58,905 bases of DNA from a virus: positions 1 through 58,905 of the IMG/VR virus record IMGVR_UViG_3300045996_001882; one strand, written 5' to 3'. Below, piece after piece: positions 48,822-55,315 of this stretch; within the stretch, counting starts at the first letter, position 1, and the number at the start of each line of letters is the position of its first letter. The notes under the pieces were generated by a model. The model was not told where the DNA came from and made no database searches. It saw only the letters and a program-made list of their open reading frames with translations. The translations under genes and the position numbers were made by a program.

Positions 48822-49400
48822 TTAGCGAGATGCGCGGCACACACGACGCGCGGCCGGTGTGGAAGGATGCGAGCACGAGGAGTGGGAGGTCGACGTACGG
48901 CGAGCAGGGGGAGCAGCAGCGACCGGCGACTCGTCCTCGAGCCCGGTGACGGTGACATCCTTCATGCCGGCAACACGTCGGACAGCAGCGATGAACACAT
49001 CGCGCTGGTACACGCGGACATCGAACTCAAGGGAAGTGTTAACGACATACTCCCGGTCAGGACGGAGCAGGTAATGACCACTCACCAGAATGCGGTCCTG
49101 AGGCCCGTCGAGAGTCGAAATGGACTCGGTCGGCTCGATGCTGTCAACGATCACCCAGTACTTGTGGTCAACGAAGACGCGGTCGCCGATCTTGACGTTG
49201 GCCCACGTGGTCGTCATGGTGTGGCAGAGATCGTCGTAGATCTTGCGAGCACGCGCGGCAGCGGCGGTGAGCTTGTACCCCTTACCACTGCACCCGAGGC
49301 AACGACCCTCCCAAGCAGGCGAGGGATACGTACCGGTTCCCCCACACCGCGTGCACGGCTCGACATGGAACTTGATGCTGAGCTTCGAGTTCGTCGTCAT
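48822..49400 (-). CDS. DnaJ-type zinc-finger protein with C-terminal HCHC motif
   Basis: 192 aa. N-terminal CTRCGGTGTY and CLGCSGKGY form one DnaJ-type CxxCxGxG pair. The middle is a small beta domain (KIGDRVFVDHKYWVIVDSIE). The C-terminus ends SHSSCSHPSTPAARRVCRAS, the short H-x2-C-x-H-x9-C-R motif found in six other proteins of this genome. Leaderless promoter at 49407-49412. Confidence 0.7.
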   Translation of the reverse strand: MTTNSKLSIKFHVEPCTRCGGTGTYPSPAWEGRCLGCSGKGYKLTAAAARARKIYDDLCHTMTTTWANVKIGDRVFVDHKYWVIVDSIEPTESISTLDGPQDRILVSGHYLLRPDREYVVNTSLEFDVRVYQRDVFIAAVRRVAGMKDVTVTGLEDESPVAAAPPARRTSTSHSSCSHPSTPAARRVCRASR

Positions 49401-49406
49401 GGGGAG

Positions 49407-49412
49407 ATCCTA
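49407..49412 (-). promoter_or_regulatory. Leaderless-type -10 box
   Basis: TAGGAT, 6 nt before ATG 49400. Confidence 0.55.
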
Positions 49413-49432
49413 TCAGAGATGTCAGGTGAACT

Positions 49433-50053
49433 TCAGGCGAAGGAGCGCGACGAGCGGCAGCGACGTCGAGCAGCAGGCGTTGCATCGTGCCCGCAGGTCG
49501 CGTGTGACGACCCGGAGCGCTTCGCCGGCACAACTACCGGGGCGACGTTGTTTGGGGCGTCAGCGACGATCTCAGCGGTGGAATTATCAGCCTCGGTCAG
49601 CTGATTCGTTGCTGTAACGTTACCTTGGGCGAGGTAGATCGGCTTGTCGACCCCCTCAACCCGGATTCCCACCCGCGGACCCCAGTGGCTGTCACCAACC
49701 CACATCACGATGCCCGAAGTGCCGATCTTGACCTTGCGGCCCTTAGTGACGGTGACATGCTGGTCGACAACGATTTGGCCCGAGGCCAGCTCGTGACGGA
49801 TCTTGTCCTGGTACTCGACGACGGCGTCAGGGTCGCATTCGTGCACGTGCCAGCAAGCGGTGCGGCGGGCGCCGGACGCGGCCCGGTACGTCACGTCGAG
49901 CAGCTGGTTTTTCCGGTTGTACCGGGCGACTTCCCGCCCACACGCGTAGCATCGGCCCAAGTCGTGCACGTCCTCAGCCTGGTGGTTCCGCCCGTAGCAC
50001 GTGATGTGCAGCGTATCAGGGTTGCGCACGAAGCGCGGGCGCGTAGTCGTCAT
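49433..50053 (-). CDS. Hypothetical protein with CxxC pair and C-terminal HCHC motif
   Basis: 206 aa. LGRCYACGREVARY zinc knuckle near residue 35, ACWHVHEC further on, a beta domain (VTKGRKVKIGTSGIVMWVGD, similar in spirit to the beta domain of the neighbour at 48822-49400), and SHATCGHDATPAARRRCRSS at the end. Probably a paralogue of that neighbour. Leaderless promoter at 50060-50065. Confidence 0.65.
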   Translation of the reverse strand: MTTTRPRFVRNPDTLHITCYGRNHQAEDVHDLGRCYACGREVARYNRKNQLLDVTYRAASGARRTACWHVHECDPDAVVEYQDKIRHELASGQIVVDQHVTVTKGRKVKIGTSGIVMWVGDSHWGPRVGIRVEGVDKPIYLAQGNVTATNQLTEADNSTAEIVADAPNNVAPVVVPAKRSGSSHATCGHDATPAARRRCRSSRSFA

Positions 50054-50059
50054 GTGACG

Positions 50060-50065
50060 ACCTTA
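50060..50065 (-). promoter_or_regulatory. Leaderless-type promoter
   Basis: TTGGGT, 18 bp, TAAGGT, 6 nt, ATG 50053. Confidence 0.6.
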
Positions 50066-50186
50066 TCAGAAGTCCTGGGAAGAACCCAACAAGAACTTCA
50101 GCTCGCTCGTACGCAGGCGCAAGGGCCGGACGTATCCTAGGTATCTTCAGTCCTTCACCTGACGTCACGCGAGCGCTGAAGCCCAG

Positions 50187-50200
50187 TTTGCACTTGCAAA
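50187..50200. promoter_or_regulatory. TTTGC-N4-GCAAA palindrome
   Basis: TTTGCACTTGCAAA, perfect 5-4-5 palindrome in the gap between two minus-strand genes. Confidence 0.7.
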
Positions 50201-50219
50201 GACCCCTGCCCACCACTGA

Positions 50220-50236
50220 GCCGGCACGAGGCCGGC
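50220..50236 (-). terminator. Hairpin after accessory gene
   Basis: GCCGGC-N5-GCCGGC, just past the stop of the gene at 50247-50609. No U-run. Confidence 0.4.
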
Positions 50237-50246
50237 AGGGTGTGGA

Positions 50247-50609
50247 TCAAGCGGTGCGGCGTGCCTTGCGGCAAGCAGCGCGACCCTTCGACGTGCGAGC
50301 GTGCGTGCAGAAGGCGTGGGAGGAAGACGTGGGGACATGCACCTCGGCGTGCGCAAGGGACATCGCATGGGGCACATGCAGGTGGTAGTACGAGATGAAC
50401 GCGGGGACGAACCCGTAGTCGTCAGTTGCAGGGTCGTACGAGTACGAGTACGCGGGCATCGCGACGGCGACGAACTCGAGGGCCTGACGTGCGGTTTCGA
50501 CCTCGAAGTGCATTTCCTGGTCGGCGGAGGGGCGGACATCCGGTTCGGTCAGGTAGAGCATGTTGTCGTCGGCGTCGAAGGCGGTGATTCGGTACGTCGC
50601 GGTGTTCAT
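50247..50609 (-). CDS. Small accessory protein with C-terminal HCHC motif
   Basis: 120 aa. N-terminal alpha/beta domain (ATYRITAFDADDNMLYLTEP, FEVETARQALEFVAVAMPAY), ending SHAFCTHARTSKGRAACRKA. Leaderless promoter TTGCGA, 18 bp, TAGAGT at 50616-50621. Confidence 0.65.
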   Translation of the reverse strand: MNTATYRITAFDADDNMLYLTEPDVRPSADQEMHFEVETARQALEFVAVAMPAYSYSYDPATDDYGFVPAFISYYHLHVPHAMSLAHAEVHVPTSSSHAFCTHARTSKGRAACRKARRTA

Positions 50610-50615
50610 GCCAGA

Positions 50616-50621
50616 ACTCTA
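50616..50621 (-). promoter_or_regulatory. Leaderless-type promoter
   Basis: TTGCGA, 18 bp ending GGTGTGG, TAGAGT, 6 nt, ATG 50609. Confidence 0.7.
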
Positions 50622-50663
50622 CCACACCCGGCGACAGGGTCGCAACAGGTGTGGCGAAGAGTT

Positions 50664-50993
50664 TCAGGCGGACGCGGCACGTGCCTTGCGGCAGGCAGCA
50701 CGCGCCTTGGGCGTCACCTCGTGGTCACACGCAGCGTGTGACCTGCGCGTCTTGGCAACGGTGTTCGTGTGGCCGGTGCGCAGTTGGGGCTTCGCGTTCA
50801 GGCAGACGAGGCAACCTTCGCGCTCCTCAGCGTCCTCGGGAAGGTTGTCGTGGTTGCCATCCTCGTGGCAGTTTTCCCAGCCCCAGAAATCGTAGCACTT
50901 GTTGCACACGTCGCGGTAGTGGCGGCCCGGGGTGCGGTTTGCGGCGGTGATGCGCGTACCACATTCGGTGCAGGTGATCGTCGTTTTCGTCAT
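50664..50993 (-). CDS. Zinc-ribbon accessory protein with C-terminal HCHC motif
   Basis: 109 aa. ITCTECGTRITAANRT then VCNKCYDFWGWENCHEDGNH forms a zinc ribbon; CLVCLNAKPQLRTGH and finally SHAACDHEVTPKARAACRKA, the shared motif. Leaderless promoter at 51000-51005. Confidence 0.7.
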   Translation of the reverse strand: MTKTTITCTECGTRITAANRTPGRHYRDVCNKCYDFWGWENCHEDGNHDNLPEDAEEREGCLVCLNAKPQLRTGHTNTVAKTRRSHAACDHEVTPKARAACRKARAASA

Positions 50994-50999
50994 GCCAGA

Positions 51000-51005
51000 A
51001 CTTTA
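51000..51005 (-). promoter_or_regulatory. Leaderless-type promoter
   Basis: TTGCAC, 18 bp ending GGTGTGG, TAAAGT, 6 nt, ATG 50993. A TTTGC palindrome lies 12 bp upstream of the -35. Confidence 0.7.
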
Positions 51006-51041
51006 CCACACCTCAGCGCAGACGTGCAAGGGGTATGGTGA

Positions 51042-51055
51042 TTTGCTTGTGCAAA
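51042..51055. promoter_or_regulatory. TTTGC-N4-GCAAA palindrome
   Basis: TTTGCTTGTGCAAA, perfect, upstream of the promoter for the gene at 50664-50993. Confidence 0.7.
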
Positions 51056-51074
51056 CTGTCCTCTCACCGACAAA

Positions 51075-51089
51075 CCCGCACGTGGCGGG
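51075..51089 (-). terminator. Terminator-like hairpin
   Basis: CCCGC-N5-GCGGG followed on the minus strand by TTTGT, 24 nt after the stop of the gene at 51113-51451. Confidence 0.55.
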
Positions 51090-51112
51090 CAGTCGGGGGA
51101 GGGGGTCAGTGA

Positions 51113-51451
51113 TCAGTCAGCGAGCGTGTCGCTGTCCTCGAGCTTCAGGATCGCGTCAACGATCAGGACCTCGAGCGAGTCGTCAGAGAGCTCGGTCAGC
51201 GTCTCGCGGATTTCCAACATCGCACGATCGATCAGGTCGGCGTTCTCGACGTTGGGGGCGACGTTGTTGCGCTCCTCGATCGCGCAGAGGATCCCGTACG
51301 CGGTGACATTGTGGGGATCGGTCGGGGAGAACATCCCGTACGTGTTGAGCTCGCGCGGGGACACCTCGTCGTCGAGCCAGGTCACGAGCGTGCGGATCGC
51401 GGTGTCGACGTCATCGGCGGTGTGCGGGCGGGTGTTCGCGTTGTTCGTCAT
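51113..51451 (-). CDS. Small acidic accessory protein
   Basis: 112 aa, MTNNANTRPHTADDVDTAIR start, all helical and acidic (ELSDDSLEVLIVDAILKLED). No zinc motif. Leaderless promoter at 51458-51463. Function unknown. Confidence 0.65.
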   Translation of the reverse strand: MTNNANTRPHTADDVDTAIRTLVTWLDDEVSPRELNTYGMFSPTDPHNVTAYGILCAIEERNNVAPNVENADLIDRAMLEIRETLTELSDDSLEVLIVDAILKLEDSDTLAD

Positions 51452-51457
51452 GTGAAG

Positions 51458-51463
51458 ACCTTA
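51458..51463 (-). promoter_or_regulatory. Leaderless-type promoter
   Basis: TTGCGC, 18 bp ending CGTGTGG, TAAGGT, 6 nt, ATG 51451. Confidence 0.7.
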
Positions 51464-51500
51464 CCACACGCCTGCGTCGTCGCGCAACAGGTCATCACAG

Positions 51501-51737
51501 TCACTTGCGCGCGTCGCCTGCCTGGGCCCACTCGAAGCGCGGGTACCCTTCAGACGCCCGTTCGCGCCCGATCAGGTCACGAGCGTGGTCCCAGCTCGCG
51601 GTTTCCAGGAGGATCTCGTACGACACCGCGGTCCCACCTGGTGACGTGTAGGGACGCAACTGACGAACTGCCTGGTCAGCGGTGGTGACGTTGATCGAAC
51701 CGACGTAGCCGTCGTTGCGGCGGAAGACGAAAAACAC
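51501..51737 (-). CDS. Small hypothetical protein
   Basis: 78 aa from GTG at 51737 (FFVFRRNDGYVGSINVTTAD after the start), 10 nt after the upstream stop. Small alpha/beta protein, cotranscribed with the gene at 51750-52187. Confidence 0.55.
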   Translation of the reverse strand: MFFVFRRNDGYVGSINVTTADQAVRQLRPYTSPGGTAVSYEILLETASWDHARDLIGRERASEGYPRFEWAQAGDARK

Positions 51738-51749
51738 GAGGAGTACCCT

Positions 51750-52187
51750 TCAGATTTCGATGGTGTGGATGATGTCGTAGGGAAAGACCATCTCGTTGTC
51801 CTCGTGGTCGAGGCCCTCGATCGCGTCGTCGCCGACGCGGGTGAGACGAATGAGGGTGTCAACGGGAACGTCACCGAGACCCGGAACTGCATGGGTAACC
51901 GTGATGAACTTCTCGACTTCCTGGTCAAGCGCACGTGACAGCAGGATCAACGTGTTCGTGAAGCGGTCGCGCGAGCTCTGAGTACGCCGTGAGCGCCTCG
52001 AAGTCGTTCGCCGCGGTGACGTCTCGGTCGGCGTACGATCGGCGCTCACGGACGAACTCAGCGCCTGACCGAACGGCGTGACGAGCAAGTTCGTCGTGTC
52101 CGCGGCGGGGGTGATTCCCGCACGCCGGCACGCGGCACGACCCGCCGGAGTAGCGGGGTGGTCACACAGCTTATGAGACATGGCCAT
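51750..52187 (-). CDS. Accessory protein with N-terminal HCHC motif
   Basis: 145 aa from ATG at 52187. Begins MAMSHKLCDHPATPAGRAAC then RRAG, so the shared motif is at the N-terminus here. The rest includes RSRRTQSSRDRFTNTLILLS and a beta domain near the end (VDTLIRLTRVGDDAIEGLDH). GGAAGG lies upstream; the frame is open to 52250. Confidence 0.6.
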   Translation of the reverse strand: MAMSHKLCDHPATPAGRAACRRAGITPAADTTNLLVTPFGQALSSSVSADRTPTETSPRRTTSRRSRRTQSSRDRFTNTLILLSRALDQEVEKFITVTHAVPGLGDVPVDTLIRLTRVGDDAIEGLDHEDNEMVFPYDIIHTIEI

Positions 52188-52269
52188 GATCAGAACGCCT
52201 TCCAGGGAGAACACGCCAATGCGCGGCCCGCGATTGAGCAAGCAGCGCATTGACGTGCGGCGGGAATGG

Positions 52270-52575
52270 TCAGCGGGCAGCGACGATGTTGCGCTTGATG
52301 CGCCAGGTCATGGCACGCGTGGCGTCGTGCGAGGACCAATCGACCTCGTTCTCGTTCACCTCGATGATCGGCTTGTCGGTGCGGGTACGCACGGAGGTCA
52401 CGATGCGGTACGTCGTGCGACGCCGGCGCAGCTGGGCGGGCGTGGCCGGGATCACGATGTCGCGGTTCGAGGGCGTGAAGTCGACAGTCACATCACCCAC
52501 ACGCAGATCGCGAGCGAACACGAGTTCGAGGTCGGCGGGAGTCACAGTGGCGCGGAAGGCGTCGGTGTTCGTCAT
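52270..52575 (-). CDS. Small accessory protein
   Basis: 101 aa, MTNTDAFRATVTPADLELVF start, beta-rich (GDVTVDFTPSNRDIVIPATP, YRIVTSVRTRTDKPIIEVNE). Leaderless promoter at 52582-52587. Not recognised. Confidence 0.65.
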   Translation of the reverse strand: MTNTDAFRATVTPADLELVFARDLRVGDVTVDFTPSNRDIVIPATPAQLRRRRTTYRIVTSVRTRTDKPIIEVNENEVDWSSHDATRAMTWRIKRNIVAAR

Positions 52576-52581
52576 GCCATA

Positions 52582-52587
52582 ACCTTA
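52582..52587 (-). promoter_or_regulatory. Leaderless-type promoter
   Basis: TTGCAT, 17 bp, TAAGGT, 6 nt, ATG 52575. Confidence 0.7.
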
Positions 52588-52623
52588 CCAGGACTCACGT
52601 CGTCATGCAACAGGAAACCCAAG

Positions 52624-52637
52624 TTTGCTTTAGCAAA
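52624..52637. promoter_or_regulatory. TTTGC-N4-GCAAA palindrome
   Basis: TTTGCTTTAGCAAA, perfect, just upstream of the promoter for the gene at 52270-52575. Confidence 0.7.
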
Positions 52638-52655
52638 TACTGACCGCTCTCCGAA

Positions 52656-52673
52656 GCGCACCCGGAGGTGCGC
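52656..52673 (-). terminator. Hairpin after accessory gene
   Basis: GCGCACC-CGGA-GGTGCGC, 7-bp stem with tetraloop, 18 nt after the stop of the gene at 52691-53002. No U-run. Confidence 0.5.
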
Positions 52674-52690
52674 GCGGAGGAAGGGGCAGG

Positions 52691-53002
52691 TCAGAGGGAC
52701 GTGGGGTCGACGTTCTTGACGCAGTTCTTGCACGTCACACACTCGGCGAGCGCGTCGACACGCTCCGCGGAGTCGAGGATGTTCTTCTTCGTGCAGGCGA
52801 ACGTATCACCGTTGGCGAAGTGAACGACCTTCGACCCCTTCGCGATGACCGCCGGGTACGTGGGGGGCAGAACGACCTTCGTCGCCTTCGGCGTCACGCC
52901 GGCACGGGCCCGGCGGCAGGCGGCACGAGCGACCTTCGTGCGGGGGTGAGTGCAAGCGGTGTGGGCGGTGGTGCGGGGCGCGGTGTTCGTGTTCGTCGTC
53001 AT
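52691..53002 (-). CDS. Accessory protein with HCHC motif and Cys pairs
   Basis: 103 aa. AHTACTHPRTKVARAACRRA near residue 13, then a small beta part (SKVVHFANGDTFACTKKN) and ECVTCKNCVKN. Both Cys groups could bind zinc. Leaderless promoter at 53009-53014. Confidence 0.65.
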   Translation of the reverse strand: MTTNTNTAPRTTAHTACTHPRTKVARAACRRARAGVTPKATKVVLPPTYPAVIAKGSKVVHFANGDTFACTKKNILDSAERVDALAECVTCKNCVKNVDPTSL

Positions 53003-53008
53003 GCCATA

Positions 53009-53014
53009 AACCTA
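53009..53014 (-). promoter_or_regulatory. Leaderless-type promoter
   Basis: TTGACA, 17 bp, TAGGTT, 6 nt, ATG 53002. Confidence 0.75.
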
Positions 53015-53060
53015 ATGCCTGTGTGGCGTGGTGTCAACACGCTTCGCAGAAGTCGGCCTG

Positions 53061-53074
53061 TTTTCTTTTGCAAA
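53061..53074. promoter_or_regulatory. TTTGC-N4-GCAAA-type site (one mismatch)
   Basis: TTTTCTTTTGCAAA, upstream of the promoter for the gene at 52691-53002. Confidence 0.5.
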
Positions 53075-53104
53075 CATGCTCTGACCTGGCCAAACTGCCG
53101 CAAA

Positions 53105-53131
53105 GCCCCGCGACGTCGAAGGTCACGGGGC
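53105..53131 (-). terminator. Rho-independent-type terminator
   Basis: Minus strand: GCCCCGTGAC and GTCGCGGGGC pair (10 bp, one G-T) around a 7-nt loop, then TTTG. Ends the lipoprotein gene. Confidence 0.7.
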
Positions 53132-53148
53132 CCGCGGGGGTCAGATCA

Positions 53149-53382
53149 TCAGGGGTACGTGTCGCCCGGGGCGTACTTGCTCGCCTCGTCCTCGCTCACG
53201 CACACGGTCTTGATCGCCTGGTCGCCAGGCGGGTCGACAGCGATCGACCAGAACTTGTCCTGCCCACACTCCTTCGAGGGGACGTCAGGGCTGTACACGT
53301 TGACGACGGTGCCACTGACGGTGTTGCACGCAGTGAGCGCGAAGGCCATCGCCACGAGCGCGGCGGTGAACTTGGTACGCAT
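53149..53382 (-). CDS. Phage-encoded lipoprotein
   Basis: 77 aa. Signal peptide MRTKFTAALVAMAFALTACN with lipobox LTAC, so Cys19 would be acylated. The mature part has two further Cys (SKECGQDKF, IKTVCVSED) that may form a disulfide. GAAGGA before ATG 53382 and a -10 TACAGT at 53423-53428 give it a leadered transcript, unlike its neighbours. An exported surface lipoprotein from a lytic phage suggests superinfection exclusion, by analogy only. Confidence 0.7.
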   Translation of the reverse strand: MRTKFTAALVAMAFALTACNTVSGTVVNVYSPDVPSKECGQDKFWSIAVDPPGDQAIKTVCVSEDEASKYAPGDTYP

Positions 53383-53422
53383 GTCATTGGTCCTTCAGGT
53401 AGGCGGTGAAGCGAACACAGGA

Positions 53423-53428
53423 ACTGTA
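53423..53428 (-). promoter_or_regulatory. -10 box of lipoprotein gene
   Basis: TACAGT on the minus strand, 40 nt before ATG 53382; directly follows the stop of the upstream gene. Confidence 0.5.
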
Positions 53429-53707
53429 TCAGACCTGACGCTGCGCTCGACACCTTTTCCGGGCAGCAGGAGTGTGTTCGTGATCACACCCAGCATGTGA
53501 CCCCAACTTGCGCGACCCTGGAGGACGAGGAGCGGCCGACTTCTCCCGCGTACACGTGATGCACGACGAGTTGAGACGCTCCTCGTGTTCGCCGTCACGG
53601 TGCTCCCGTGCCAGCTCAGCGACGAGCCAGCACACCGGACACAGCTGATCACGGGCCCGAGATCGCACGCGGTCGCACTTGGGGCACACGAACGCGCTCA
53701 CGGTCAC
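53429..53707 (-). CDS. Zinc-ribbon accessory protein with C-terminal HCHC motif
   Basis: 92 aa, GTG start at 53707. FVCPKCDRVRSRARDQLCPV then C forms a zinc ribbon, followed by SSCITCTREK, and ending SHAGCDHEHTPAARKRCRAQ. GTGA overlap with the upstream gene. Confidence 0.7.
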   Translation of the reverse strand: MTVSAFVCPKCDRVRSRARDQLCPVCWLVAELAREHRDGEHEERLNSSCITCTREKSAAPRPPGSRKLGSHAGCDHEHTPAARKRCRAQRQV

Positions 53708-55006: not shown

Positions 55007-55315
55007 ATGACGAACAACACGAACAACATCGCCTCGATCATCACCTGCACCGGGCGACGCGGCGCGAAGGCCTGCTCCCACGCTGCGAAGGCGGGTCGCA
55101 CGATTCACGCGATCCCCGCACATCGTGACGACTTCTACCTCGTCCTCCCCACGTATCACTTCACGTCCGCCGAGGAGGCGCTGACGTACGTGTCCAACGC
55201 GTTCGACAACGCGCCCCTCGTCACGTCCGACGCCGATCGCGAGTCGTTCGAGGCTCAGGAGATCGCGTTCAAGATCCCGAGGACGTACGTGCACCCCTCT
55301 CGTCGCAACGTCTGA
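55007..55315 (+). CDS. Small accessory protein (only plus-strand gene in block)
   Basis: 102 aa, MTNNTNNIASIITCTGRRGA then KACSHAAKAG, loosely like the shared Cys/His motif but not matching it. The remainder is alpha/beta (YLVLPTYHFTSAEEALTYVS). Convergent, with no spacer, to the gene at 55316-55549. Confidence 0.7.
   Translation: MTNNTNNIASIITCTGRRGAKACSHAAKAGRTIHAIPAHRDDFYLVLPTYHFTSAEEALTYVSNAFDNAPLVTSDADRESFEAQEIAFKIPRTYVHPSRRNV

Follow-up and report, generated by a model that had tools for sequence, protein, structure and literature searches.

Seven otherwise different small proteins encoded in a viral DNA of 58,905 bp (IMG/VR record IMGVR_UViG_3300045996_001882; "the window" below means this whole stretch) share a short segment of the form H-x2-C-x-H-x2-T-x2-[AG]-R-x2-C-R. 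This segment, which we call the tag, is real, widespread, unnamed and modular; in phages of soil actinobacteria it has been joined to the ends of many proteins that are otherwise unrelated. We propose, with a probability of about 0.5, that it is a zinc-stabilised, arginine-striped mini-domain through which phage proteins of many kinds gain affinity for nucleic acid.

Scanning the window in six frames for the pattern returned exactly seven segments, all on the minus strand and each in a different open reading frame (ORF), where 2.7e-5 are expected analytically by chance over six frames and none arose in 300 residue shuffles. The tag closes the products of gene 1 (48822..49400, 192 residues; tag HSSCSHPSTPAARRVCR, 48834..48884), gene 2 (49433..50053, 206 residues; HATCGHDATPAARRRCR, 49454..49504), gene 3 (50247..50609, 120 residues; HAFCTHARTSKGRAACR, 50268..50318), gene 4 (50664..50993, 109 residues; HAACDHEVTPKARAACR, 50688..50738) and gene 7 (53429..53707, 92 residues from a GTG start; HAGCDHEHTPAARKRCR, 53447..53497). 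It lies at the N-terminus of gene 5, at residue 5 (HKLCDHPATPAGRAACR, 52125..52175; gene at 51750..52187, 145 residues counted from the in-frame ATG before MAMSHKLC, with a longer ORF opening at 52250), and near that of gene 6, at residue 14 (HTACTHPRTKVARAACR, 52913..52963; gene at 52691..53002, 103 residues). An earlier, sequence-only reading of this DNA had listed the same seven segments, with the same genes and terminal positions, and the scan reproduces all of them. Aligned, the window tags are identical at H1, C4, H6, T9, R13, C16 and R17 (7/7), and T9, R13 and R17 are encoded by several synonymous codons, so that selection acts on the protein and not on the DNA. It might be supposed that the pattern is a chance product or a DNA-level repeat translated by accident, since the DNA of the gene 3 and gene 4 tags agrees at up to 83% of positions across 35 nt; however, the motif stands in one reading frame in all the unrelated proteins that carry it, and the low chance expectation together with the synonymous codon variation rules this out, leaving it a negligible probability.

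We found no known domain that explains the tag. Profile and sequence searches of Pfam (run on 107 tags), NCBIfam and the PDB matched no entry, PADLOC was likewise empty, a Foldseek search with the predicted tag model gave a best E of 8, and literature searches found no description of the motif; a known-domain explanation was therefore rejected. The suggestion that this is an unnamed module common to otherwise different proteins is thus borne out, and it has survived the profile search for a single explanatory domain by which it could have fallen. Two PHROG profiles of unknown function contain the tag, phrog_18656 (matched by 100/107 tags) and phrog_1342 (76/107); these describe whole-protein families, most tagged proteins match them over the tag only, and we found no source that treats the tag as a domain of its own. 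The sequence-only reading had called the segment a mini zinc knuckle. Like CCHC zinc knuckles and other mini zinc fingers, the tag is short, portable and rich in Cys/His ligands and basic residues, and its function would be alike if the nucleic-acid reading holds. Its ligands are conserved as that proposal implied, but it is not a classical knuckle: it lacks the C-x2-C-x4-H-x4-C spacing, none of the 107 tags matches Pfam zf-CCHC, and its spacing is H-x2-[CH]-x-H-x9-C with a predicted loop and C-terminal helix. The tag appears to belong with small metal-folded modules, among which its use as a portable tag would be unusual.

Several protein families show that the tag is a true detachable module. 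The passenger of gene 2 is a phrog_37790 protein whose first ~150 residues align with Muddy gp36, FF47_35 and Vine gp31, proteins of about 138 residues that end earlier and have neither linker nor tag. In the gene 1 family, whose window member carries a DnaJ-like CxxCxGxG zinc motif in its passenger, the tag is C-terminal in the window and in a second locus (L009; L numbers are our labels) and N-terminal in a Nocardiopsis element (L127). The gene 4 family (phrog_18656) keeps every key tag residue in 13 aligned proteins, from the window and from Gordonia, Mycobacterium and Streptomyces phages, a set gathered by BLAST searches rather than with the motif; in the Gordonia phages a further domain has been added behind the tag. 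The passenger of gene 4 has, besides, a second unannotated domain rich in metal ligands (CxxC...CxxC...ENxHxDxxH...CxxC), conserved across Gordonia, Mycobacterium and Streptomyces phages.

Beyond the window, a DNA pattern of the motif matched 70 IMG/VR stretches and 74 stretches of one-per-species genomes, and profile scoring separated the matches into two groups, strong and chance. Tag copies scoring >14 bits occur in 178 non-redundant proteins, or 168 once weak genome matches are dropped, and come from IMG/VR contigs, from named Gordonia, Mycobacterium and Streptomyces phages and from actinobacterial mobile elements. All 49 records that were searched whole hold between 1 and 11 tags, at E <=2e-5 for all but two marginal matches, and the largest number is found in Streptomyces phage Zuko (MN204493), where the 11 tags lie within a single stretch of small genes; other named carriers include the Gordonia Emalyn group, Lauer and Mycobacterium phage Muddy (gp3). 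A tblastn search of the phage collection with the 24-residue consensus gave no match, the query being too short, whereas the 109-residue protein does find matches. With all phyla scanned, every one of the 24 bacterial genome matches at >=28 bits is from Actinomycetota. At E <1e-5 only 1/396 sampled Actinomycetota genomes, the seed genome itself, and 0/398 genomes of the Pseudomonas phylum carry the tag, rates that are lower bounds (at most about 22 candidates were scored per genome). We therefore take the tag to be borne by phages or mobile elements, and rejected the explanation that it is a host domain. Within the 168 proteins the tag lies <=30 residues from the N-terminus in 116, <=30 residues from the C-terminus in 34 and internally in 18, classes that are approximate because start codons were chosen by rule; near-standalone tag proteins of 40–59 residues and tandem tags within single proteins also exist.

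The pattern of conservation among these copies supports well the identification of the tag's H, C, H and C as metal ligands. Each key motif position was freed in turn in the ORFs of phage loci, all of which had been chosen because they contained one complete match or more, so that only the further copies there are free of selection: in 119 copies H1, H6, R13, C16 and R17 had no substitute, while position 4 was C in 100, H in 19 and nothing else, position 9 was T or S, and position 12 was A, G, D or M. The family pattern thus reads H-x2-[CH]-x-H-x2-T-x2-[AG]-R-x2-C-R, to which the window tags conform, and its His form is matched in 40 IMG/VR stretches. The exchange is visible within one family, as the L009 relative of gene 1 ends in SHAGHDHPNTPSARAACRK (His form) and the gene 1 protein in SHSSCSHPSTPAARRVCR. 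Extra, degenerate copies in L099, L127, L129 and L046, a small and partly selected sample, retain H, C, H and C while T, R13 and R17 are often changed. Ligand constancy, the Cys/His swap and the loss of arginines in degenerate copies are, taken together, as expected if the metal site is structural and the arginines have a function of their own. Four conserved Cys/His ligands that tolerate Cys/His exchange are also what a zinc-binding mini-domain shows, and relatives do not lose the four ligands that the sequence-only reading had picked out.

The metal is most likely zinc, around which the tag would fold. AlphaFold2 predictions for 124 tags (mean predicted local distance difference test score, pLDDT, 84; about 89–93 across the tag core) consist of a loop and one basic helix (21–34) that begins after T9, and in a prediction of the whole 109-residue product of gene 4 the tag is the best-predicted part, the model being poor elsewhere (pLDDT 63). 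The ligands might instead hold a metal other than zinc, such as copper or an iron-sulphur cluster, or be redox cysteines, with the tag acting as a sensor or metal store. Rieske clusters likewise use two Cys and two His, and to that extent the composition of the tag suits such a role; however, the Rieske [2Fe-2S] order C-x-H...C-x2-H is absent from the tag, ligand order and number differ, and neither the variant with three His and one Cys nor the length of 20 residues suits Rieske or other iron-sulphur motifs, which makes a non-zinc site very improbable.

The passengers are diverse; besides small proteins of no known function they include several whose roles are linked to DNA. HNH endonucleases carry the tag in front (L107) or between two HNH units (L118), and the SprT-like proteases Emalyn gp30 and Lauer gp32 open with a tag that the matching profile, PHROG 1006, does not cover. 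Other passengers are DUF2637 membrane proteins (L010 by Pfam; L160 and L167 by similarity), DUF6011 proteins (L018, L022) and a phrog_2319 protein (Zuko gp84). Two Streptomycetaceae proteins (L117:4200-4466 and L143:2623-2910, both minus strand) consist of the tag and a histone-H1/HupB-like PAKK tail and nothing else. In L156:77-1741 and L165:5165-6262 (both minus strand) a MuF head protein is followed by the tag and then by a papain-fold toxin domain (PF15644; Gln_amidase E of 1.2e-10 and 6.1e-12, respectively), an unusual polymorphic-toxin architecture. The tag is joined by a Pro-rich linker to an HExxH protein in L158:7820-9064 (minus), L174:267-2018 (minus) and L179:13032 (plus); the L158 gene adjoins and stands before scaffold-like and major-capsid-like genes, and the L179 gene, which is cut by the contig end, begins just behind a MuF-toxin (MuF-ADP-ribosyltransferase-like) gene.

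What the tag binds is less firmly indicated, and nucleic acid is our best guess. Its net charge is +3.4 per 22 residues, compared with +0.24 for the rest of the same proteins, and R13, R17 and often R20 share one helix face. Conservation in the tag extends to Ala and basic residues but to no hydrophobic patch. The basic charge, the nucleases, the DNA-protein-crosslink-type protease, the DUF2637 proteins and the tag-plus-PAKK proteins together favour nucleic-acid binding. SpdB2 is a protein that we take to be of the DUF2637 type, a type that, like the SprT-like proteins, is among the tag's passengers. SpdB2 binds double-stranded DNA non-specifically (PMC4170104). In the mechanism that we propose, the tag would be an autonomous mini-domain of about 20 residues whose H1, C4 (or H4), H6 and C16 coordinate a single metal ion, most likely of zinc; this site would pin the short loop onto the helix starting at about T9, and the helix would expose a stripe of the invariant arginines R13 and R17, often with K/R18 and R20. 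Having spread through Actinobacteria phages and mobile elements by fusion to protein ends, the tag would give every passenger an affinity for nucleic acid, be it DNA of the phage or of the host or possibly RNA, and nucleases, SprT-like protease, membrane proteins and small zinc-ribbon proteins would thereby act at DNA. The module, its detachability, its ligand pattern, its charge and its distribution come directly from the analyses, whereas zinc, the fold around it and nucleic acid as the target are inferred.

Several observations weigh against this proposal. H1-like tails occur in 8/168 tagged proteins and in 4% of background ORFs, a lack of enrichment that weakens one strand of the nucleic-acid argument, and AlphaFold2 places no zinc in its models. 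The Streptomyces DUF2637 proteins examined (L244–L248) end in a conserved segment of ~50 residues where the phage DUF2637 proteins have the tag; the position would fit replacement of a known DNA-binding domain by the tag, but the segment matches neither Pfam nor a DNA-binding family, and we rejected that idea. Restriction to Actinobacteria, as in the top genome matches, is not something that general DNA binding requires. Finally, invariant surface arginines and a tag tolerated at either protein end would fit a protein-docking tag equally well. The metal-folded tag could dock to a single protein, either of the actinobacterial host or of the phage (a polymerase, say, or a factor of the nucleoid or of proteolysis), and so recruit many phage proteins, a reading to which both the host range and the host-type leaderless promoters on tagged genes in the window lend themselves, the latter being expected of early host-takeover genes. 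Against docking, the tag surface has no conserved hydrophobic patch for a partner, the tandem and near-standalone copies would need a separate reason, and the host restriction may merely mirror a shared phage gene pool; we consider docking rather unlikely, though next in probability to nucleic-acid binding.

The tagged toxins raise a further alternative, that the tag steers cargo into the procapsid for injection with the DNA, in the manner of T4 capsid targeting sequences or MuF fusions. Both of those resemble the tag in having a short common segment or head protein that carries diverse cargo, and the tag itself occurs within MuF-toxin proteins (L156, L165) and opens HExxH-type genes in the head-gene cassettes of L158 and L179, with L174 alike. 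T4 capsid targeting sequences are N-terminal and proteolysed; the tag differs in being rich in metal ligands, in lying at either end (the 34 C-terminal and 18 internal copies depart from the T4 arrangement) and in occurring mostly outside head genes. The MuF-like protein gp7 is directed to the inside of the capsid, and injection has been proposed for MuF toxins (PMC6316719), which speaks for loading. However, the MuF part of L156 would already do the loading, a head context is found in only about five contigs, the genes that carry most of the tags are small and lie away from the head cassette, having promoters of their own in the window, and the DUF2637 passengers are multi-pass membrane proteins. 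Virion loading is accordingly improbable, well behind docking.

A broader formulation, which we advance only tentatively, is that actinobacteriophages use the tag, as a new zinc mini-domain, for a general address label that one host or phage target reads. If so, phages would bring unrelated proteins together into a co-recruited set just by putting the label on one end or the other; the set would number as many as 11 in one genome and take in membrane proteins, nucleases, proteases and toxins that are injected. Most small actinobacteriophage genes have no known function, and a portable tag, present in the therapeutic phage Muddy among others, gives a handle on the whole class together: the binding partner of one 20-residue peptide would suggest a role for dozens of families. 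The tag also supplies a missing domain model for annotating proteins now called hypothetical, and might perhaps be put to use by engineers of Actinobacteria as a very small binding tag folded by metal.

The tagged genes share a promoter-like element with some of their neighbours. The arrangement TTGnnn, a 17–18 nt spacer, TAnnGT, 6 nt and ATG stands at seven minus-strand starts between 48.7 and 56 kb, where shuffling gives 0.12 expected: the tagged starts 50053, 50609 and 50993 and the untagged starts 51451, 52575, 54588 and 54899. At gene 4 it reads TTGCAC-N18-TAAAGT-6 nt-ATG (50994..51029, minus strand) and is of the leaderless type. The pattern looks like leaderless transcription by the host RNA polymerase, and the seven genes, tagged and untagged, are thus probably early. 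The same promoter type is found at the plus-strand gene at 55007 and at the minus-strand start 57011. Elsewhere in the window the minus strand carries siphovirus-like terminase, portal, MuF (assigned by PHROGs) and capsid genes, and the plus strand replication genes. Inside the tagged-gene cassette, 53149..53382 (minus strand) encodes a small predicted lipoprotein (MRTKFTAALVAMAFALTAC...), possibly of the superinfection-exclusion type.

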